Positions 2 through 9,743 of a DNA stretch of 64,000 nucleotides are shown piece after piece. The stretch spans positions 98,323 through 162,322 of the forward strand of contig NZ_JAKLTQ010000009.1 of the NCBI RefSeq assembly GCF_022012395.1, in the 5' to 3' direction. The translations under genes and the position numbers were made by a program. Origin of the DNA: Arthrobacter hankyongi (GTDB lineage: Bacteria; Actinomycetota; Actinomycetes; Actinomycetales; Micrococcaceae). The notes under the pieces were generated by a model. That model worked only from the letters and a program-made list of their open reading frames with translations, ran no database searches and was not told the origin of the DNA. Position 1 is the stretch's first letter. Each line of letters opens with the position of its first letter.

Positions 2-799
2 TCATTTGCTCCTGAGGAAATCGAGGCTTTGTGCGGTCCACTGGTTTTCCAGCCGGATGGTCTCCGCTTCGGAGTCCTGCCGGGGCAGCCAGTGTTCGAC
101 GATCTGGTTGATGTTTCTTTCCTGCGGCTGCAGCTTCCGGACCATGTAGTCATAGTCCAGCAGGCCTTCGCCGAGCGGTGCGCCGGAATACGTGAACCCG
201 ACCCATCCCTCCTTGCGGCTGAACGCAAAGTCTTTGATGTGCATGTTGAGGACATAGGGTGCGACGGCGTCGATCACCTCGCGCGGCATCTCCAGCGCGG
301 CCACGGTATTGGCCGGATCGCTGCAGACGCCCAGCGAAGGGCTGGCCACCCGGCGGATGACCTCGAGCACGTCTGCGGTGGGCACCTGCTCGTAGGTTTC
401 GACGGCGACCTTCACCCCGGCTGCCTCGAAGGCCGGCAGCATCCCGGCGAGGATCGCGGTGGCCTCGTCCACGGTGGGGGAATGCCCGGGAACCTTGAAC
501 ATGGTCCGCAGCAGCGGGGCGTCCAGGATACCGGCGATGTGCAGGAACTTCTGCAGGTGCTCCGGACGGATTCCCTTGGTGCCCAGCTCCAGCGCAATGC
601 CCAGCGAGTCCGCCGTGGCCCGCACGGCCTTCAGCTCCCGGTCCGCCATGGACTCCAGCGGGGCGTAGTCGCAGATCTGGAACAGGTCCACGCCCAGGCC
701 GGCGGTCCGCTCCAGCACCTGGTGCAGGTCCAGCGGGGCCGAAACCTTATCGGAGAGCTGCCAGAAGAAGGCATAGCTGCTCAGGCCGATGCCGCTCAC
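2..799 (-). CDS. TIM-barrel sugar isomerase/epimerase-like protein, candidate 3-oxo-isoapionate decarboxylase
   Basis: A 265-residue xylose-isomerase-like TIM barrel. The GTG start overlaps the stop of the upstream permease gene by 4 bases (GTGA), so the two are translationally coupled. Expected metal ligands are visible at Glu134 (VAVETYEQ), Asp161 (CSDPANT), His187 (NMHIKD) and Glu235 (VEHW). The opening GLSSYAFFWQ and the QICDYAPLES and LELGTKGI segments resemble what I recall of OiaC, which decarboxylates 3-oxo-isoapionate to L-erythrulose in D-apiose breakdown. A lactonase of the same pathway lies 3 kb away under the same operator. The fold is secure; the exact reaction is inferred, and another sugar isomerase or epimerase is possible. 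The gene ends at the window edge, so further operon genes may lie to the left. Confidence 0.85.
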   Translation of the reverse strand: MSGIGLSSYAFFWQLSDKVSAPLDLHQVLERTAGLGVDLFQICDYAPLESMADRELKAVRATADSLGIALELGTKGIRPEHLQKFLHIAGILDAPLLRTMFKVPGHSPTVDEATAILAGMLPAFEAAGVKVAVETYEQVPTADVLEVIRRVASPSLGVCSDPANTVAALEMPREVIDAVAPYVLNMHIKDFAFSRKEGWVGFTYSGAPLGEGLLDYDYMVRKLQPQERNINQIVEHWLPRQDSEAETIRLENQWTAQSLDFLRSK

Positions 800-2154
800 C
801 GGCGGGCTCCCGATTCGGTCAGGACGGGGGACGGGCCGGTACTGTCCGGGCCCGCCTGGCCGGTGCGGCTGAGGACGACCATGAGGAGGGCGGAGAGGAG
901 CATGAAGCCTCCCACCACGAACATCGGCGCGGTGTAGCTGCCGGTCCAGTCCTTGAGCCAGCCGGTGATGTATCCGGCGCTGAAGCCGGCCAGGTTGCCC
1001 ACGGTGTTGATCAGGGCGATGCCGGCTGCCGCGGCGGCCCCGGTCAGGAACTGGGTGGGCACCGTCCAGAAGTTGGGCAGCGCGGCGAAGATGGCCATCG
1101 CCGTGACCGTGATGACGGCGATGGTGGCCGCCGGCGATCCGGCGAACAGCGCCAGCGGGATGCTCAGCCCGCCGATGAGGGCCGGCAGCGCGATATGCCA
1201 GGTGCGCACGCCGCGCCGGGTGGCGTCCCGGGACCAGAGGTAGAGGGCCACGGCGGCCGGGAGGTAGGGGATGGCGGTGATCAGGCCCTTCTGGAACACG
1301 TTGAACGTGGTGCCGTACAGGTCCTCGAAGCCGGTGATGATGGTGGGCAGGTAGAACGCCAGCGCGTACAGGCCGTAGATGAAGCCGAAGTAGATCGTGG
1401 CCAGCATCCAGACCCTGCCGTTGCCGAAGACGGTGCGGATGCCCACGTGCCGGTGGGCGGTGGTGGTCGCGGACTTTTCCCGCGCCAGCGCGCCGGTGAG
1501 CCAGGTCTTTTCCGCGGCCGTGAGCCACTTGGCTTTGGCGGGGGAATCGGCCAGGTAGAACCAGGACACGACGCCGATGAGGATGGCGGGGATAGCGACG
1601 CCGAAGAACATAAAGCGCCAGCCCTCCAGCCCGAAGATGCCGTGCTGCTGCATCAGGGCCCCGGCCAGCGGCGCTCCGATCACGGTGGTCAGGGGCTGGG
1701 CCAGGTAGAACAGGGCCAGGATCTTGGCCCGGTGCCGTGACGGGACCCAGAGGCTGAGGAAGAGGATGGCCCCGGGGAAGAATCCTGCCTCCGCCACGCC
1801 GAGCAGGAAGCGCAGGATGTAGAGGTGCTCCATGCTGCCGACCCAGGTGAACAGCAGCGACACGATGCCCCAGCTGACCATGATCCGGGCCAGCCAGCGC
1901 CGGGCGCCGAACCTGTGCAGGGCCAGGTTGCTGGGCACCTCCAGGAGGATGTAGCCGATGAAGAAAACGCCTGAGGCGAAGCCGAACTGTGCCGCGGAGA
2001 GGCCCAGGCCGTCGTTCATGCCGCCGGGGCCGGCGAAGGCAATGGCGGTGCGGTCCAGGTAGTTGATGAAGAACATTACGGCGACAAACGGCACCAGCCG
2101 GAGGGCCACTTTCCGGATCGCGGATTTTTCAATTGCTGAGGGGGTGGTGTCCAC
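796..2154 (-). CDS. MFS permease, anion:cation symporter (ACS) type
   Basis: A 452-residue twelve-helix major facilitator. The first helix ends in NYLDR (about residues 30-35), a hallmark of the ACS family, which takes up organic and sugar acids. A GTG start at 2154 follows an AGGAG box five bases upstream. It is the first gene of a leftward operon and overlaps the TIM-barrel gene by 4 bases. A sigma70-like promoter with the GTCAACCGGTTGAC palindrome on its -35 box lies about 100 bp upstream. Context suggests import of the substrate handled by this locus, perhaps apionate or a related branched sugar acid. The substrate cannot be read from the sequence. Confidence 0.9.
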   Translation of the reverse strand: MDTTPSAIEKSAIRKVALRLVPFVAVMFFINYLDRTAIAFAGPGGMNDGLGLSAAQFGFASGVFFIGYILLEVPSNLALHRFGARRWLARIMVSWGIVSLLFTWVGSMEHLYILRFLLGVAEAGFFPGAILFLSLWVPSRHRAKILALFYLAQPLTTVIGAPLAGALMQQHGIFGLEGWRFMFFGVAIPAILIGVVSWFYLADSPAKAKWLTAAEKTWLTGALAREKSATTTAHRHVGIRTVFGNGRVWMLATIYFGFIYGLYALAFYLPTIITGFEDLYGTTFNVFQKGLITAIPYLPAAVALYLWSRDATRRGVRTWHIALPALIGGLSIPLALFAGSPAATIAVITVTAMAIFAALPNFWTVPTQFLTGAAAAAGIALINTVGNLAGFSAGYITGWLKDWTGSYTAPMFVVGGFMLLSALLMVVLSRTGQAGPDSTGPSPVLTESGARR

Positions 2155-2260
2155 ATTGACTCCTGGTGGTTGCTGTTCCGCCGGCCTGTGGCCGGGGATG
2201 CCGGAGTGCGGGTGCCGTGGGGCGTGTCCGTGGGGGATTCCCGCCGTACGTGTGACCTAC

Positions 2261-2298
2261 ACCATAGTTGGTAATCGTAAATTGGTCAACCGGTTGAC
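2261..2298 (-). promoter_or_regulatory. Promoter and GntR-type operator of the permease/TIM-barrel operon
   Basis: On the minus strand there is a -35 box TTGACC (2289-2284), exactly 17 bases, and a -10 box TATGGT (2266-2261). The perfect palindrome GTCAACCGGTTGAC (2285-2298) covers the -35 box. The same palindrome sits in the same position at the promoter of the lactonase operon (3758-3771). A regulator bound here would block RNA polymerase. The GntR protein encoded between the two sites is the obvious candidate; that binding is inferred. Confidence 0.75.
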
Positions 2299-2510
2299 TG
2301 ATTTATCGGGGAGTTTGGAGATTTCGCGTCAGGCGGGACCGGTTGGCGCTGCGGGACACTTCCGCGGCCTGACCGGGAAGCTGCCGATGTCCCTGACTGA
2401 TCGGGGCGATGATAGAGGCACCCGTCCGCCGGCGCGGGCACGCCGCCTACCACCGGCCGGGTGTGCCCATGGCTAGTGGTTGGGCCGCGCCGCCCAGGAA
2501 AGGAACCGCC

Positions 2511-2891
2511 ATGTCCGACTCCGTCGTCGAAGCGACCGCACGCTCCTACATCCAGGCCGTGGGCTCCCACGATTTGGGGGCACTTGAATACCTGCTCCAG
2601 GATGATCTCACCGCCACTTTCGCCGGCGCGGCTTTCGATAAGGTCGCCTGGACAACCGCCCTCAAGCGCCTTCTCCCGGTCCTGGTCCGCAACGAGATCC
2701 GGGAGGTCTTCACCGCCGGGGACCGGGCCTGCGTGGTGTATGACTTCGTCACCGACACGGCTGCCGGTGCGGTCAAGTGCATCGAGTTGCTCACCATCAA
2801 TGCGGACAGGATCCGCGAAATCGAACTGATCCTGGACCGGATCGACTTCGCGCCGGTGAACAAGGCGCTGAACGAACGGCTGCCGCGGTAG
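2511..2891 (+). CDS. SnoaL/NTF2-like small protein
   Basis: A 126-residue protein with the alpha+beta cone layout of the NTF2/SnoaL superfamily. It has an N-terminal helix with ATARSYIQAVGSHDLGALEYLL, then strands ending in RIREIELILDRIDF. The ATG at 2511 has a strong AGGAAAGGAA site just upstream; an earlier in-frame ATG lacks one. Members are small hydrolases, isomerases or ligand-binding domains, so no reaction can be assigned. It sits between the permease operon, which is divergent from it, and the GntR regulator gene. Whether it belongs to the catabolic locus is unclear. Confidence 0.8.
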   Translation: MSDSVVEATARSYIQAVGSHDLGALEYLLQDDLTATFAGAAFDKVAWTTALKRLLPVLVRNEIREVFTAGDRACVVYDFVTDTAAGAVKCIELLTINADRIREIELILDRIDFAPVNKALNERLPR

Positions 2892-2977
2892 GGCCCCTTG
2901 GTCCGGTGCATGGTGCGATGGCCACGGCGGCAGGTATTCAGGGTTTCCCTAGGGCTGGCTGCAGGCGGCGGGATTGC

Positions 2978-2983
2978 TAGGCT
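2978..2983 (+). promoter_or_regulatory. -10 box for leaderless transcription of the GntR gene
   Basis: TAGGCT lies 6 bases before the GTG at 2990. This is the leaderless spacing seen repeatedly in the window, and it favours 2990 over the GTG at 2984. Confidence 0.55.
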
Positions 2984-2989
2984 GTGAAG

Positions 2990-3733
2990 GTGTCCGCAGA
3001 ATCCGCCGCCGCATCGGCCAAGATCAGTGCCGCACTGGGTTCCGTCGGCCAGGGCTCGGTGGTTTCCGAGGTGGCCGAACGCCTGCTGGCGTACTTCACC
3101 AGCGGGGAGATCGCGCCCGGAACGCGGCTGCCCGCCGAGCGCCAGCTGGCCGCCTCGCTGGGGGTGGGCCGGTCGGCGGTGCGCGAGGCGCTGGCTGCCC
3201 TGGAGATCCTGGGCATCGTGGTGGTCCGGCCCGGCTCCGGTACGTACCTGCGCGACGGCGCTTCCGAGCTGCTGCCCCGGACCTTGAGCTGGGGGCTGAT
3301 GCTGGGCGAGCCCAGGACGCGGGAGCTTGTCGAACTCCGCGGCGGCCTCGAGGTGCAGGCCGCGCAGCTGGCGGCGCTGCGGATCACCGACGCGGCCCTG
3401 GACCGGATGCGGGCGAACCTGGCCACCATGGCGGAGAACCTGGGCGACCTGGCCGTCTTCGTGGAGGCCGACGCCGCGTTCCACCGCGAGATTGCCGCCG
3501 GCTCCGGAAACCAGGTGCTGCAGGAACTGCTGCAGAGCATCCGGTCCCTGCTGCGGATCTGGGTGGACCGTGCCCTGACCGACCAAGGCCACGCGGCCGC
3601 GGCCCTGGCCGAGCACCGGGAGATTTTCCAGGCCCTCGAGGCCCGCAGTGCCGGCGCGGCTGCCGGCGCCATGCAGTCCCACATGGAGACGGCGGCCCGC
3701 CGCCTGCTGGCGGGATTCGACGCCGCCCGGTAG
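2990..3733 (+). CDS. FadR-subfamily GntR transcriptional regulator
   Basis: 247 residues with an N-terminal winged helix-turn-helix (about 20-85: LPAERQLAASLGVGRSAVREAL, then the wing GSGTYLRDG) and a C-terminal helical FCD ligand domain (about 95-240). The FCD histidines are visible in DAAFHREI, AEHREIF and MQSHMETA, which usually bind a metal that contacts a carboxylate effector. The gene lies between two identical palindromes that overlap the promoters of the flanking operons. It is therefore probably the local repressor, released by a sugar acid or lactone from the pathway. The start at 2990 was chosen over the GTG at 2984 from the position of the -10 box. It may also be controlled indirectly, since neither operator lies at its own promoter. 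Confidence 0.9.
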   Translation: MSAESAAASAKISAALGSVGQGSVVSEVAERLLAYFTSGEIAPGTRLPAERQLAASLGVGRSAVREALAALEILGIVVVRPGSGTYLRDGASELLPRTLSWGLMLGEPRTRELVELRGGLEVQAAQLAALRITDAALDRMRANLATMAENLGDLAVFVEADAAFHREIAAGSGNQVLQELLQSIRSLLRIWVDRALTDQGHAAAALAEHREIFQALEARSAGAAAGAMQSHMETAARRLLAGFDAAR

Positions 3734-3757
3734 CCGCCGGCAGCCTCCCCAGGATTG

Positions 3758-3795
3758 GTCAACCGGTTGACTTGCAGGGGCGGCACTCCCATAAT
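3758..3795 (+). promoter_or_regulatory. Promoter and GntR-type operator of the lactonase/SDR operon
   Basis: The perfect palindrome GTCAACCGGTTGAC (3758-3771) overlaps a -35 box TTGACT (3767-3772). A 17-base spacer leads to a -10 box CATAAT (3790-3795). The geometry mirrors the site at 2285-2298, also in the flanking bases (ATTGG before it on the plus strand). The 5' leader to the GTG at 3894 is about 90 bases. Confidence 0.78.
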
Positions 3796-3893
3796 CGGTA
3801 TGGTCTGAGTCACAGAACCCCGCCAGGGGAACCTGCACCCACTACGCCCGGAACCGCCGCCGAGCGGGCCCCGGCCCGGCAGAGAGCAGCGAC

Positions 3894-5765
3894 GTGTCCT
3901 CCCAACAGCCGGCCCCAGCCTCCAGCCAGCCCGCGCCCCGTGCCGCCCGGGCCGTAAGCTCCCGCCTCGACCCCGAGGTGCGCACGCTGACCGCCGGGCC
4001 CTGGACGGTGGACCTCGTCGGGGACGAATTCGGGCCGATAGCCTACCGCGGCCGCACCGTTCTCCGGGCGGTCCGGGCCGTGGTCCGGGACCATGACTGG
4101 CGCACCCTGGAGCCCTCGGTGCAGCACCTGGAGATCACCGGGAACGGGGCCGGCCTGCAGGTATCCTTGCAGGTCGGCTATGCCGGCTACGGCGCCCGGT
4201 ACGCCGGCCGCCTCACGGTCCGTCTGGCGCCGGAGGCGGTGGAGGTCCACTTCGACGGACACGCCGTGGCCGGGTTCCGCAGCAACCGGATCGGCCTGGT
4301 CGTCCTGCACCCGCCCGGCGACGCCGGACGGGCCGTGACGGTCATCGGCACCGACGGCAGCGCGGTGCCCGCGCACTTTCCGGTGGAGATCAGCCCACAC
4401 CAGCCATTCCTGGACATTGCCGCCCTGGAATGGGCCGACGCCGGTACGGTGTTCACGCTCTCCTTCACCGGCGACGTGTTCGAAACGGAGGACCAGCGCA
4501 ACTGGACCGACGCCAGCTTCAAGACCTACAGCACGCCGCTGTCCCGGCCGTTTCCGGTGTCCGTGGGCGCCGGCGACCTGGTCCGCCAGGGCCTGAGGCT
4601 GCAGGCGGCAGCCGGCAGGGCCGCCGCCGTCGAAACCGCCTTCGGCGGATCCGGCAGGGCGGAACCGGCCGCCATCGGCGGCGCCGTGTCCCGCGTCCCG
4701 CCGCTGGCCCTCGCGGCCGGCGAGGGTGCCGGCGTCGGCGCGAACCACGAGGCACTGCCTCCGCTGCCGGGGCTGGACGCCATCCTGGTGGAACTCACCG
4801 GGCCCGAGGACCAGTGGGAAACGCGGCTCGACGCCGCCGCCCGACAGGCGGCACGCCATGGCGCCGCCCTGGATGTGCGGGTAGTGACGGCCGCACCGGA
4901 ACGGACGGCGGCCGCCCTGGCGGACTGGCCCGGCCGCATCGCCCGGCTGGCGGTCTTCGACCCGGCCAGCCACGTCACCGAGCCAGGAGCCTGGCCGGCA
5001 GCCAGGTCCGCCTTGCTGAGGGCCGGCTTCCGCGGCCAACTGCTGGCCGGTACCCGGGCCCACTTCACCGAACTGAACCGCAACAGCGGCCGGCTGCCGA
5101 CGGCTGCCGACGCCCTGACCTTCAGCATCACGCCGCAGATGCACAGCACCGAAGTCCGCCACCTGGTCGAGACGGTGCCGATGCAGCGGCTGGCCGCGCA
5201 GCAGGCCCTGCGGCTGGCGGCCGGCCGCCCGGTGCATGTCGGGCCGGTGACGCTGCGGCCGCGCTTCAATGCGGTGGCCAGCTCCGGAAACGGTCCGGCC
5301 GCGGAGAGCGACGAACTGCAGGCCGAGCCGTTCACGGCGGCCTGGACGCTGGCCAGCATCGCGGCCCTGTCCCTCGACGGTGTGGCCTCGGTGTGCTACT
5401 TCGAGACCGCCGGGCCGCGCGGCATATCCGCTGCGGACGGCACCCTCTACCCCGTCGGGGAACTGCTCCGGCGCCTGGCCGCGCTGCGGGGCGCGCCGGT
5501 GCTGGCGGTGCCGGCCACCGGTGCCGTGACCCTCTACCCGGTCCGCACGCCGGAGGCCATCCTGCTCTTCGCCGGCAATCTCTCGCCGCGGCCGGCCGAA
5601 ACCGAGGTCCTGCTGCCGGCCGGCAGCGACGCCGCCGAGGCAACGGTGCTCGGAGCCGGCGCCGGCTCGTCGGGAACCCTCACCGCCCGGGACGGCCGCC
5701 GGCTCCGCCTCGCCCTGCAGCCCTGGTCCACCATGCTGGTCCGGATCGGCCGGGGGGCCGGCTGA
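3894..5765 (+). CDS. apnL: D-apionate lactonase-like protein (ApnL family)
   Basis: A 623-residue protein. The segment EDQRNWTDASFKTY at about residues 199-212, followed by a PLSRPFPV stretch, matches my memory of the signature of ApnL, the enzyme that opens D-apionolactone to D-apionate in apiose catabolism. Upstream, LVVLHPP and PHQPFLDI also fit. The length agrees with the family (about 600). There is no signal peptide, so it is cytoplasmic. It is the first gene of an operon with the SDR gene and carries the shared GntR operator at its promoter. The GTG start has only a weak ribosome site (AGAGAG). The family call rests on motif memory; some relatives may act on other aldonolactones. Confidence 0.68.
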   Translation: MSSQQPAPASSQPAPRAARAVSSRLDPEVRTLTAGPWTVDLVGDEFGPIAYRGRTVLRAVRAVVRDHDWRTLEPSVQHLEITGNGAGLQVSLQVGYAGYGARYAGRLTVRLAPEAVEVHFDGHAVAGFRSNRIGLVVLHPPGDAGRAVTVIGTDGSAVPAHFPVEISPHQPFLDIAALEWADAGTVFTLSFTGDVFETEDQRNWTDASFKTYSTPLSRPFPVSVGAGDLVRQGLRLQAAAGRAAAVETAFGGSGRAEPAAIGGAVSRVPPLALAAGEGAGVGANHEALPPLPGLDAILVELTGPEDQWETRLDAAARQAARHGAALDVRVVTAAPERTAAALADWPGRIARLAVFDPASHVTEPGAWPAARSALLRAGFRGQLLAGTRAHFTELNRNSGRLPTAADALTFSITPQMHSTEVRHLVETVPMQRLAAQQALRLAAGRPVHVGPVTLRPRFNAVASSGNGPAAESDELQAEPFTAAWTLASIAALSLDGVASVCYFETAGPRGISAADGTLYPVGELLRRLAALRGAPVLAVPATGAVTLYPVRTPEAILLFAGNLSPRPAETEVLLPAGSDAAEATVLGAGAGSSGTLTARDGRRLRLALQPWSTMLVRIGRGAG

Positions 5766-5832
5766 GCGGCCGGGCCGGACCAAGTCGCGCGGCGTGCCAC
5801 GGCCCGCCGGCAGCAACCGAGAAGGAGAACCA

Positions 5833-6588
5833 ATGGAAGGGCGTCTTGCAGGAAAAACCGCGCTGGTCACCGGGGCCGGATCGGGGATCGGGCTGGCCGT
5901 GGCCCAACGTTTCGCGGCCGAAGCGGCACGGGTCTATTTCGCCGACATCAATCTCGACGCTGCCCGGCAGGCCGCCGCGGCCGCCGGACCGGGCAGCGCC
6001 GCGGCCCTGGCGATGGACATTTCGGACGAGGCCAGCGTCCAAGCGGCCTATGCCGCCATTGCCGCGGACGGTCCGCTGGACATCGTGGTGGCCAACGCCG
6101 GCGTCCAGCTGTTCGGGCAGGACGCCAAGGTCGGGGACCTGGACCTGGCGGTCTGGGAGAAGACCGTCGCCGTCAACCAGCGGGGTGCCTTCCTGACGCT
6201 CAAGCATGCGGTCCGCGCCCTGGCGGGCCGCGGCGGTTCCATCATCTGCACCGGAAGCCCGACGGCGGTGGTCGCCTGCGGGCAGACCTTCACCGCGTAT
6301 TCCAGTTCCAAAGCCGGCGTGCACGGGCTGGCCCGCGTCGTCGCCGCCGACTATGCCGCGGAGGGCATCCGGGTCAACACCGTGGTTCCCGGCTACACCG
6401 AGACGCCGCTGGTGCAGGCGATCGCCTCCAACCCGGCCAGCCGCGCAGGGCTGGTGGACGCCACCATGCTGGGCCGGCCGGGCACGGCCGCCGACGTCGA
6501 AGGCATCATGGTGTTCCTGGCCAGCGACGATTCGGCCTATGCCACCGGGGGGCTGTTCACCGTCGACGGCGGCCTGACCGCCCTCTGA
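5833..6588 (+). CDS. Short-chain dehydrogenase/reductase (classical SDR)
   Basis: 251 residues. The cofactor motif TGAGSGIG is at 13-20, NAG at about 86, and the catalytic Tyr156-x3-Lys160 lies in AYSSSKAG with a Ser about 14 residues before it. Asp in YFADINLD after the second strand favours NAD(H). The ATG at 5833 has GAAGGAGA upstream and lies 67 bases after the lactonase stop, in the same operon. In an apiose/apionate route it could oxidise the sugar to its lactone or act on a later intermediate. The known apiose dehydrogenase (ApsD) is of another family, so this would be a replacement; the substrate is unproven. Confidence 0.88.
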   Translation: MEGRLAGKTALVTGAGSGIGLAVAQRFAAEAARVYFADINLDAARQAAAAAGPGSAAALAMDISDEASVQAAYAAIAADGPLDIVVANAGVQLFGQDAKVGDLDLAVWEKTVAVNQRGAFLTLKHAVRALAGRGGSIICTGSPTAVVACGQTFTAYSSSKAGVHGLARVVAADYAAEGIRVNTVVPGYTETPLVQAIASNPASRAGLVDATMLGRPGTAADVEGIMVFLASDDSAYATGGLFTVDGGLTAL

Positions 6589-6702: not shown

Positions 6703-7407
6703 ATGGACTTGCACGATGCACAGCAGGCAGCGGAAGCCGGCGCGGACGGGATCGCCGCCCCGGTGCTTTCCCGCCGCCAGTTCGGCCTACTGATCGGCGG
6801 CGGCGCCGTGCTGCTGGCCGCCGGGGGCGCCTTCGGCATCTACGCCAGGACGCGCACCGGCGCCGCAGCAGCTGCCGCCACATCCTTCGGGTCGCTGCAG
6901 CTGCTGCGGGCCGGCCGGCTGGCCCGGCTGGGGACCGACGGGCGTCCGGCCTTCGCCTCCGGCGAGTCCGCCCTGGCCTTACTGACGAAAGGGCCTGCGG
7001 CCGGACCAGCCGGCGGGGCGGGCGTGCGGGAGCCGTCGGTCCATGACCATGCCGGCGGCGTGTCCGGCCACAGTATTCCGGGGACCCGCTGGCCGCCGCC
7101 GGAAAACCACACCTGGGGCGACGTCGTGATCGTCGAGCTCCAGGTGCACAACGCCGGTGCCGGGCCAATGCTGTTCTCGCCCGGCCAGCTCCGGCTCAGG
7201 GCAGGCCGGGCACCGGCCACGATCACACCCCAGGATGCAGGCCGGTCACCAGGCGCCATCGGCCCGGGGGAGACGGTGCTGACCTGGGTCAGCTATCTGG
7301 CGCCGCAGGAGGCCACCGAATTCGAGCTGGACTTCACCGATCCGTTCGATGACGCGGCCATTGCCTTGCCGCTGCCGGCCTTCGCCGCGATCAGGGAGCA
7401 CGCATGA
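6703..7407 (+). CDS. Tat-signal membrane-anchored protein, partner of multicopper oxidase
   Basis: 234 residues. An N-terminal SRRQFGLLIGG followed by an Ala/Gly/Leu-rich stretch to about residue 47 resembles a twin-arginine signal or anchor. Residues 110-130 are His/Gly-rich (VHDHAGG, SGHSIPG). The rest (about 135-225) is a beta-sandwich-like domain with VELQVHNAG and a conserved-looking WVSY segment. No specific family is recognised. The stop overlaps the oxidase start by 4 bases (ATGA), so production of the two is coupled. The oxidase has no signal of its own; this protein could carry it out through Tat or act as its electron or copper partner. That role is inferred. Confidence 0.75.
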   Translation: MDLHDAQQAAEAGADGIAAPVLSRRQFGLLIGGGAVLLAAGGAFGIYARTRTGAAAAAATSFGSLQLLRAGRLARLGTDGRPAFASGESALALLTKGPAAGPAGGAGVREPSVHDHAGGVSGHSIPGTRWPPPENHTWGDVVIVELQVHNAGAGPMLFSPGQLRLRAGRAPATITPQDAGRSPGAIGPGETVLTWVSYLAPQEATEFELDFTDPFDDAAIALPLPAFAAIREHA

Positions 7408-9743
7408 GCCCGCTGCAGATCCACATTAACGAGGGATTCCTGCCGATGGTGGACGGGGCGTTGGTCTACCACCGCGGCTTTGGGGACCGGCCGACCTCGG
7501 TCCAGGACCCCAAGCCGAGCCTCGCGGTCAAGCCGCGGGTCTTCACCGCCGACGGGCGGATCGTGGCGAGCCGGCTGTATCCGCTCAATGCCGCCGCGCC
7601 GCCGAAGGGTCGGCCCGAACCGGCCCTCCAGGATCCGGCGAATCCCGGCCAGTTCCTGGTCCGCCGCCGGTTCTGGGCCAGCTACTTCCCGGAACGGACC
7701 CTGATCGCCGAATCCGGCAGCACCATCAGCCTGCGGGTGACGAACAACCTGGCCCAGCCGCACGTGCTGCAGTTCCTCGACGTCGGCGGGACGGGAGTGC
7801 ACCGCGGCACCGGCAGCATCGCCCCGGGCCGGACCTCCACGCTGGAGTTCGAGGCGCCGGCACCGGGCACCTACGTGTACTGCGATCCTGGGGCCGATCC
7901 CAAGGATCCGAACAAGGATCCGGTCCAGCGGGTGCTCGGGCTGTTCGGTGCCCTGCTGGTGATGGATCCGCGCCAGGCCTGGCGCAGCCACGCGGCCGGC
8001 CCCGAATTCGAACGGCAGTGGGTCTGGATCCTGCACAACGTGGACCCGGCCTGGGCGCGGATCGCCTCCCGCCAGCAGATCGTGGACCCGCAAAAGACCC
8101 CGGTCTTCCCGCGCTACTTCACGCTCAACGGCCGCAGCGGCTTCCAATCGCTGGGCATCAGCACGGACAAGGAGCTGAACCGGATCCGTGAGGAGGACTC
8201 CCTGATGTCAGGCTCCGCCCGGCAGGTCGACGTCCGGGACTTCAGCCAGGTGACGACGGCGGACACGCTGCGGACCGGACAGCTGATGCGCTTCGTCAAT
8301 GCCGGCGTCGTCCACCACCAGCTCCACTTCCACGGCAACCACATCTGGACCGTGCGGCGCAACGGGCAGGACTTCCCCCGCAGCGGCGGTTTCGTGGACG
8401 CCGAAGGGCACGTGGTGCTGCAGCAGTGGGAGGACGTGGTGGAGGTCCATCCGCTGGACCGGAAGGACTCCGTGCTGCCGGTCCGGCGCCCGCCGGAGAC
8501 GACCGACGCGGTCTGGAACGCCCGGCGGGTCGACTGGGACTACCCGATGCACTGCCACGCCGAGCCGTCCCAGGTGGCGGTGGGCGGCATGTATCCGGGC
8601 GGGCTGGTCGGACACTGGACGGTTGCCGCACCGGTCGACGTGCCGGAAGCCGGCCATGTCCATGAGCTGTACCGCAGCCAGGTCGATTTCAGCTCCGACC
8701 AGATCCACGAAGGCCACCCCGAAACCGAATTCCGGCAGGACCCGGACGTGGCGCTGGACTTCAAGTTCTTCAACCGCAAGATGGTCTTCGACGACCGGGG
8801 CGAGTTCGAGATGTGGACCTTCGAGACGGAGGATTCGGGCCGCATCTTCCCGGCGCCGCTGGTCCGCCTGACCGAAGGGGACGTATTCCACGGCACAGTG
8901 CACCCGAGCAAGCGGGTGCACACCATCCACTGGCACGGCATCGAACCGGATCCACGCAACGACGGGGTGGGGCATACCTCCTTCGAGGTCTCCGGCCAGT
9001 ACACCTACCAGTGGCAGCCCGACGTGGGCCGGCCGGGCAACCCGAACTTCGGCGCCTCGGGCACGTACTTCTACCACTGCCACGTCAACACCACGCTGCA
9101 CGTGCAGATGGGGATGTTCGGTCCGCTGATCATCGACCCGAAGGTGCATCCGCGCTTCCCGGCGTCTGCCGGGGCCAGACGTGCCTTCGTCGACGGGCCG
9201 GAATACGACATCGACACCGAAACCATCCTGGTGCCCTATTCGGTGGACCCACGCTGGCACCAGCTCAATCACGCGGCCGGGCTCTCCGGCGACGACGCCG
9301 GCCTGGACCGGTTCCAGCCGCGCCACTTCTATTTGCTCGGCGGGGAATTCGCGCATCCGCAGAAGAAGGAAGGACCCCAGCTGCTGTCCCGGATCCGGGC
9401 CAACGTGGTGCCGCATCCGGTGAAGAAGCCCACGCTGCTGCGGCTGCTCAACGCCAACTACTTCCCGGTTGACGTCCGCTTCACGGATGCAGCCGGCCGG
9501 CCGGCCGTCATGGCCGAACTGATCTCCCACGACGGAAGGCCGTTCCGCGACACCTCCAGCCCCACGGGGGCGGCGCCGCCGGTGCGGCTGATGACCAGCA
9601 AGCTCAACTTCGGCGCGGCCGAGCGCTACGACATGCTGCTCAAACCCCCGGGGCCCGGGACCTTCTGGCTCACCGTGACCCTGATGGACTGGATCACCCG
9701 CAGGGTCCTGTTCACCCGGCGGATCCCCATCACCGCCCAGTGA
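7404..9743 (+). CDS. Multicopper oxidase with permuted copper-binding motifs
   Basis: 779 residues in several cupredoxin domains. The first (about 95-190) has beta-sandwich features but no obvious copper ligands. Then come HHQLHFHGNH (about 302-311) and YPMHCH (about 380-385), which look like the third and fourth motifs of a laccase. HTIHWHG (about 506-512) and YHCHVNTTLHVQMGM (about 556-570) follow and look like the first and second; the last has an HCH-x5-H-x4-M type-1 site. This order is the reverse of the usual laccase order. No signal peptide is visible; the gene is coupled by an ATGA overlap to a Tat-signal protein. The substrate is unknown; phenolics, Cu(I) or Mn(II) are typical of the superfamily. 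Confidence 0.88.
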   Translation: MSPLQIHINEGFLPMVDGALVYHRGFGDRPTSVQDPKPSLAVKPRVFTADGRIVASRLYPLNAAAPPKGRPEPALQDPANPGQFLVRRRFWASYFPERTLIAESGSTISLRVTNNLAQPHVLQFLDVGGTGVHRGTGSIAPGRTSTLEFEAPAPGTYVYCDPGADPKDPNKDPVQRVLGLFGALLVMDPRQAWRSHAAGPEFERQWVWILHNVDPAWARIASRQQIVDPQKTPVFPRYFTLNGRSGFQSLGISTDKELNRIREEDSLMSGSARQVDVRDFSQVTTADTLRTGQLMRFVNAGVVHHQLHFHGNHIWTVRRNGQDFPRSGGFVDAEGHVVLQQWEDVVEVHPLDRKDSVLPVRRPPETTDAVWNARRVDWDYPMHCHAEPSQVAVGGMYPGGLVGHWTVAAPVDVPEAGHVHELYRSQVDFSSDQIHEGHPETEFRQDPDVALDFKFFNRKMVFDDRGEFEMWTFETEDSGRIFPAPLVRLTEGDVFHGTVHPSKRVHTIHWHGIEPDPRNDGVGHTSFEVSGQYTYQWQPDVGRPGNPNFGASGTYFYHCHVNTTLHVQMGMFGPLIIDPKVHPRFPASAGARRAFVDGPEYDIDTETILVPYSVDPRWHQLNHAAGLSGDDAGLDRFQPRHFYLLGGEFAHPQKKEGPQLLSRIRANVVPHPVKKPTLLRLLNANYFPVDVRFTDAAGRPAVMAELISHDGRPFRDTSSPTGAAPPVRLMTSKLNFGAAERYDMLLKPPGPGTFWLTVTLMDWITRRVLFTRRIPITAQ

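Follow-up and report, generated by a model that had tools for sequence, protein, structure and literature searches.

A probable oxidative D-apiose/D-apionate locus of Arthrobacter with a short-chain dehydrogenase in the place of ApsD

Described apiose systems and the Arthrobacter locus

The described systems closest to the Arthrobacter hankyongi locus considered here, which opens a stretch of 64,000 nucleotides (the window, G000:C67:98323-162322, from a genome of 5,186,447 bases in 67 contigs), are the oxidative D-apiose clusters of Rhizobium and Shinella (L111 and L112). Like the window, these hold homologues of ApnL and ApnO with a dehydrogenase beside ApnL, and L111 also has a GntR-type regulator (named NanR). 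They differ from it in having a Gfo/Idh-type ApsD instead of a short-chain dehydrogenase/reductase (SDR), an OiaX/OiaK branch and an ATP-binding cassette (ABC) transporter, and their ApnLs exceed the cut-off of the equivalog model NF049900 (818 and 1055 bits), whereas the ApnL-like protein of the window does not. Plasmid operons of Erwinia sp. E602 and Pantoea sp. At-9b (L113, L114) are ordered as permease of the major facilitator superfamily (MFS), kinase, isomerase of the triose-phosphate-isomerase type, OiaC and ApnO; their OiaC is 55% and their ApnO 65-67% identical to those of the window, as is the Erwinia MFS permease at 71%. However, no ApnL or SDR is annotated beside the operon in the stretch seen, and the regulator is a different one. 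The pBB1 cluster of Cupriavidus necator N-1 (L115) carries GntR (35%), MFS (70%) and ApnO homologues in a row, but continues with OiaX/OiaK homologues and has no ApnL match within the stretch. The D-apiose cluster of Pectobacterium and E. coli, which shares the use of D-apiose with the window, is set apart from it by description and not by sequence: as described, it follows an isomerase/kinase/transketolase route, and for E. coli it is suggested that a pair of putative oxidoreductases substitutes for a missing first enzyme (PMC13001218). The literature searched, including the accessible parts of PMC13001218, PMC6302742 and PMC11747546, describes neither an SDR-type D-apiose dehydrogenase nor apiose breakdown in Arthrobacter; Carter et al. 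2018, which lies outside that coverage, may do so. On the L-erythrulose kinase, the literature entries listed offered nothing of use.

Against this background, we consider it likely that the locus encodes an actinobacterial form of the oxidative route for D-apiose/D-apionate, arranged as two operons around one FadR-type GntR regulator and headed by an SDR. What would be new here is a known pathway with an exchanged first enzyme and a clean regulon. Gene content, conservation and specificity of the operator, co-occurrence, and the want of an ApsD-grade gene were computed directly. The features are as follows, in window coordinates.

-860 to 0 (L004:19140-20000, outside the window), minus strand: ApnO-like gene of the same operon as the next, 286 amino acids, PGDH_C
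2..799, minus strand: OiaC-like TIM-barrel enzyme (PF01261, 63 bits)
796..2154, minus strand: MFS permease of the anion:cation symporter type, probably for sugar-acid uptake (PF07690)
2289-2261, minus strand: promoter-like site of the leftward operon, TTGACC-17-TATGGT (promoter scan)
2285..2298: left candidate operator, perfect palindrome GTCAACCGGTTGAC (exact genome search)
2511..2891, plus strand: gene for a small SnoaL-like protein (PF12680, 27.8 bits, cut-off 27)
2984..3733, plus strand: FadR-type GntR regulator (PF00392, 66.6 bits; PF07729 (FCD), 92.2 bits)
3758..3771: right candidate operator, palindrome identical to the left one (exact genome search)
3767..3795, plus strand: promoter-like site of the rightward operon, TTGACT-17-CATAAT (promoter scan)
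3894..5765, plus strand: ApnL-like protein, distant D-apionate lactonase homologue (NF049900, 191 bits)
5833..6588, plus strand: SDR, proposed D-apiose 1-dehydrogenase (PF13561, 184 bits)

Pfam and NCBIfam searches agree with the initial annotation, made from the letters alone, on the TIM barrel, the permease, the FadR-type GntR protein (with both its DNA-binding and FCD domains), the ApnL-like protein and the SDR. That annotation had also guessed that ApnO lay to the left of the window, and inspection found an ApnO-like gene there, co-directional with the TIM-barrel gene and separated from its stop by 1 bp. Its product has NAD-binding and PGDH_C domains (PF03446, 3.8e-09; PF16896, 4.4e-57) and matches PDB entry 5t57, which we take to be ApnO of Cupriavidus, with an expect (E) value of 9.7e-64. 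The next gene further left on that strand holds a GGDEF domain, so the leftward operon probably reads MFS-oiaC-apnO. In relatives, too, the OiaC-like gene adjoins apnO. Residues E134, D161, H187 and E235 of the OiaC-like protein, presumably its metal site as in the fold family, are kept in all 36 aligned homologues; no OiaC model occurs among the NCBIfam matches. The permease reaches 268 bits with a D-galactonate transporter model, below the cut-off of 395.

From these sequences we infer substrates, reactions, DNA binding, repression and inducer along the following lines, the reactions being those that Carter and co-workers are said to have given for the known oxidative D-apiose/D-apionate pathway. 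The SDR would oxidise D-apiose at C1 to D-apionolactone, which the ApnL-like protein would open to D-apionate; the MFS permease may import D-apionate as well. ApnO would convert D-apionate to 3-oxo-isoapionate, the OiaC-like enzyme would decarboxylate this to L-erythrulose, and L-erythrulose would reach D-erythrose 4-phosphate through one kinase and a pair of isomerases whose genes lie at another locus. The GntR protein would repress both operons through the palindrome over each -35 box, and a pathway intermediate would release it. The compact, single-regulator apionate module of the initial annotation is supported, with corrections: a rare palindrome sits at its genes and an ApnO-like gene lies where it was expected, but the module is not self-contained, having kinase and isomerase genes elsewhere in the genome, and its substrate chain probably starts with D-apiose.

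A shared palindrome and the genes behind it

The 14-bp palindrome and the 17-base spacers of both outward promoters are as first annotated. The claim that the palindrome covers the -35 boxes is nearly exact, since it overlaps both and includes 5 of the 6 bases of each. These two promoter-like sites are two of the three matches in positions 2100-4000, against a shuffle mean of 0.2. Across the 5,186,447 bases, exact copies of GTCAACCGGTTGAC are found twice only, both at this locus, and not at many unrelated promoters. The single further site with one mismatch (C5:104241) was discounted as an operator, as it lies inside a predicted open reading frame (ORF; L011). Matches with up to three mismatches were likewise not counted, because their number in the window (5, with 2.62 expected and 12 of 100 shuffles reaching 5) is at chance level.

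In a census of 27 hand-chosen genomes, the exact 14-mer was present in 14 (24 sites in total) and in none of the 12 without an ApnO match. ApnO is known in 13 of the 14 site-bearing genomes; in the remaining one (G301) MFS and GntR genes were seen, and ApnO was not looked for. Genome G225 has ApnO and no exact site, only a variant with two mismatches. Inspection of all 24 neighbourhoods placed 23 sites directly at a gene of the apiose set, including operons of ABC transporter, apiosidase and SDR. The other one (L055) precedes a 617-amino-acid gene without family match, inside an apiosidase-ApnL-SDR cluster. Related loci show the operator again in front of MFS or OiaC and of ApnL, or in front of an ABC-apiosidase operon, and their promoter hexamers are similar. 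There are counter-cases: L037, L039, L059 and L077 carry the left site only, and at the ApnL copies of L036, L038, L041, L043 and L054 no operator with up to two mismatches was found.

We lean towards the view that, in Actinobacteria, a distinct SDR family is a non-orthologous replacement of ApsD, and that one GntR protein reading ATTGGTCAACCGGTTGAC unites scattered pieces (ABC transporter-apiosidase, ApnL, SDR, ApnO-OiaC-kinase-isomerases, MFS) into a regulon whose members have been moved or lost piecemeal. The short exact operator also offers a pointer to apiose genes in other genomes, among them apiosidase-like genes distant from the core locus.

Two sites deserve separate mention. The 617-amino-acid protein of L055 (10621-12474), which has no Pfam or NCBIfam match, is a candidate new apioside enzyme, and an ORF of equal length occupies the equivalent place in L057. 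In Arthrobacter mobilis E918, the nearest named relative met, the oiaC-like gene itself follows the operator (L030:1113-2804), and no MFS gene was matched within the 12.8 kb examined.

The ApnO-OiaC-ApnL neighbourhood recurs in loci of Actinobacteria, Bacteroidota and Acidobacteriota. Ten Arthrobacter loci (L031, L033, L034, L037, L039, L042, L045, L059, L061 and L077) have a full operon with ApnO, OiaC, a TIM-type isomerase, an isomerase of the ribose-5-phosphate-isomerase type, a kinase of the dihydroxyacetone-kinase type, MFS, GntR and ApnL; six also have the SDR. By sequence, the kinase and the two isomerases fit the L-erythrulose branch (LerK, LerI, DerI). This trio is absent from the window locus and from that of A. 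mobilis. Its homologues lie together on contig C1 of the window genome, 63%, 54% and 76% identical to the operon genes of relatives, with 152 bits for the DerI model (cut-off 240). This separate kinase/isomerase locus (L124:6447-9503) has no operator; ABC transporter genes, read by eye, are apparently beside it, and it may possibly serve tetritols. In Arthrobacter sp. Hiyo8 (L044), the oiaC, lerK and SDR matches are fragmented, perhaps through sequencing errors or decay.

In L046, L048 and L055 (called by Pfam) and in L047, L056 and L058 (called by similarity), ApnL-SDR is immediately preceded by an apiosidase-like gene. In G301 such a gene directly precedes the SDR with no ApnL between, behind the operator and an ABC transporter, and in G116 an apiosidase-like gene, ApnO, OiaC, three L-erythrulose-type genes, GntR, ApnL and SDR all occur within 12 kb.

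The first dehydrogenase and the lactonase

According to Pfam, the dehydrogenase of the locus is an SDR and not of the Gfo/Idh type. Its residues N115, S142, Y156 and K160 are invariant in all 19 aligned sequences. The distribution of SDR and ApsD was examined in the best 80 of 245 confirmed ApnL-like places across genome contigs, counting an SDR at 60% identity over 100 amino acids or 79% over 40, and an ApsD at 33% over 250; because these loci reach no further than 8 kb of flank or the end of the contig, the absence of a gene from them is weak evidence. Of the 38 actinobacterial loci, 23 have the SDR and 1 has ApsD; among the 42 others, none has the SDR and 19 have ApsD. No locus of the 80 has both. 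In a quick tree, all 23 SDR-linked ApnLs fall within one clade of 36 rows (Shimodaira-Hasegawa-like approximate likelihood ratio test, SH-aLRT, 100) that has no ApsD-linked row. Among 295 genomes of the family, 7 hold the SDR (E up to 1e-75), 10 ApnL and 12 ApnO (E up to 1e-60). The 7 SDR genomes, from five genera, all carry ApnL and ApnO together, and no other genome does; one of the searches behind these counts scored the nine best first-look candidates per genome. No ApsD-grade match was present in 15 related genome entries (about 14 distinct, G238 and G306 being alike), where the best reached 93 bits.

Gene neighbourhoods, mutual exclusion and co-occurrence thus support the earlier suggestion that the SDR probably stands in for ApsD as D-apiose 1-dehydrogenase. 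This would assign a testable function to a protein that its family models classify only in general terms, and would extend oxidative apiose/apionate breakdown to soil Actinobacteria.

Of the 35 columns invariant in 38 homologues of the ApnL-like protein, the control ApnLs of L111 and L112 agree in 33 and 32, including the FE.EDQRNW block. Judged by its sequence, the protein encoded in the window is a distant ApnL of full length, which keeps the signature residues and scores far below the model cut-off; the current ApnL model appears to miss an actinobacterial branch. A structural model (predicted local distance difference test, pLDDT, 90.6) partly matches GH30 xylanases and other glycosidases, with query template-modelling (TM) scores of at most 0.42 among the 50 matches listed, and therefore the fold does not identify a substrate. 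A sequence search of the PDB at E up to 1 gave no match.

The ApnL-like protein has diverged far faster than the proteins encoded with it in the operon: in the ten full Arthrobacter operons, identity to the window is 48-56% for ApnL, 88-89% for ApnO, 80-85% for OiaC, 82-85% for MFS and 81-86% for GntR. Two ApnL-like genes lie amid histidine-utilisation genes, one (L036:8001-9911) preceded by urocanase and an aromatic lyase and without ApnO, SDR or operator, the other (L037:8001-9758) followed by formimidoylglutamase.

Alternative readings of the locus

Several results weigh against an SDR-headed oxidative apiose pathway. The ApnL-like protein obtains its 191 bits over residues 12-586 of 595 and does not reach the NF049900 cut-off of 750, and at the C1 kinase locus no operator with up to two mismatches was found. 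Neither SDR nor ApsD is nearby in 37 of the 80 ApnL loci, and their split tracks phylum, so that few events may lie behind it. One search behind the 295-genome co-occurrence scored only nine candidates per genome; in genomes reached through loci, the SDR was found at E 1e-90 in only 6 of 12, and G296 and G297, which have the ApnO module together with ApnL, lack both an SDR at that threshold and an ApsD-grade match. Finally, a family search of the window genome yielded no PF13204 apiosidase, and the strain may for this reason live on free D-apiose, or on apionolactone or apionate made by others.

This last absence is also consistent with a module for D-apionate and its lactone only, D-apiose not being a substrate and the SDR oxidising some other compound, such as a branched or a four-carbon polyol. 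The SDR has polyol and butanediol dehydrogenases among its best models, the MFS permease resembles sugar-acid transporters, and 5 of the 12 family genomes with ApnO lack both ApnL and SDR matches, so ApnO can work without those two. We nevertheless hold this to be unlikely, as the apiosidase-like genes of relatives stand directly before ApnL-SDR or the SDR, and apiose use without ApsD needs some NAD-dependent lactone-making enzyme. Less probable again, and in our view quite doubtful, is a different sugar acid altogether, the ApnL-like protein being a lactonase for another aldonolactone on whose acid the ApnO- and OiaC-like enzymes act. The low ApnL score, the limited identity of ApnL to the copies in full Arthrobacter operons, and PF13204, presumably a broad family, would suit it, but the signature residues are shared with cut-off-passing ApnLs, and ApnO, OiaC and L-erythrulose-type genes occur together. 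That the pathway is of the normal ApsD type, with ApsD elsewhere in the genome and the SDR incidental, we regard as scarcely credible: the genome does contain Gfo/Idh-type genes, but the best of them matches ApsD with 78 bits and 29% identity, versus 261-272 bits for the ApsD-like genes of three positive-control genomes, and the SDR is conserved at 79-91% across aligned Arthrobacter loci.

Two neighbours complete the picture of the window. The SnoaL-like gene at 2511-2891, on which the initial annotation was silent, separates the left operator from the GntR gene, unlike in relatives, where the operator is near the GntR start; no counterpart was matched in the related loci compared, and it is probably outside the module core. 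To the right, positions 6703-9743 encode a DUF4352 protein and then a 779-amino-acid multicopper-oxidase-like protein, both outside the module.

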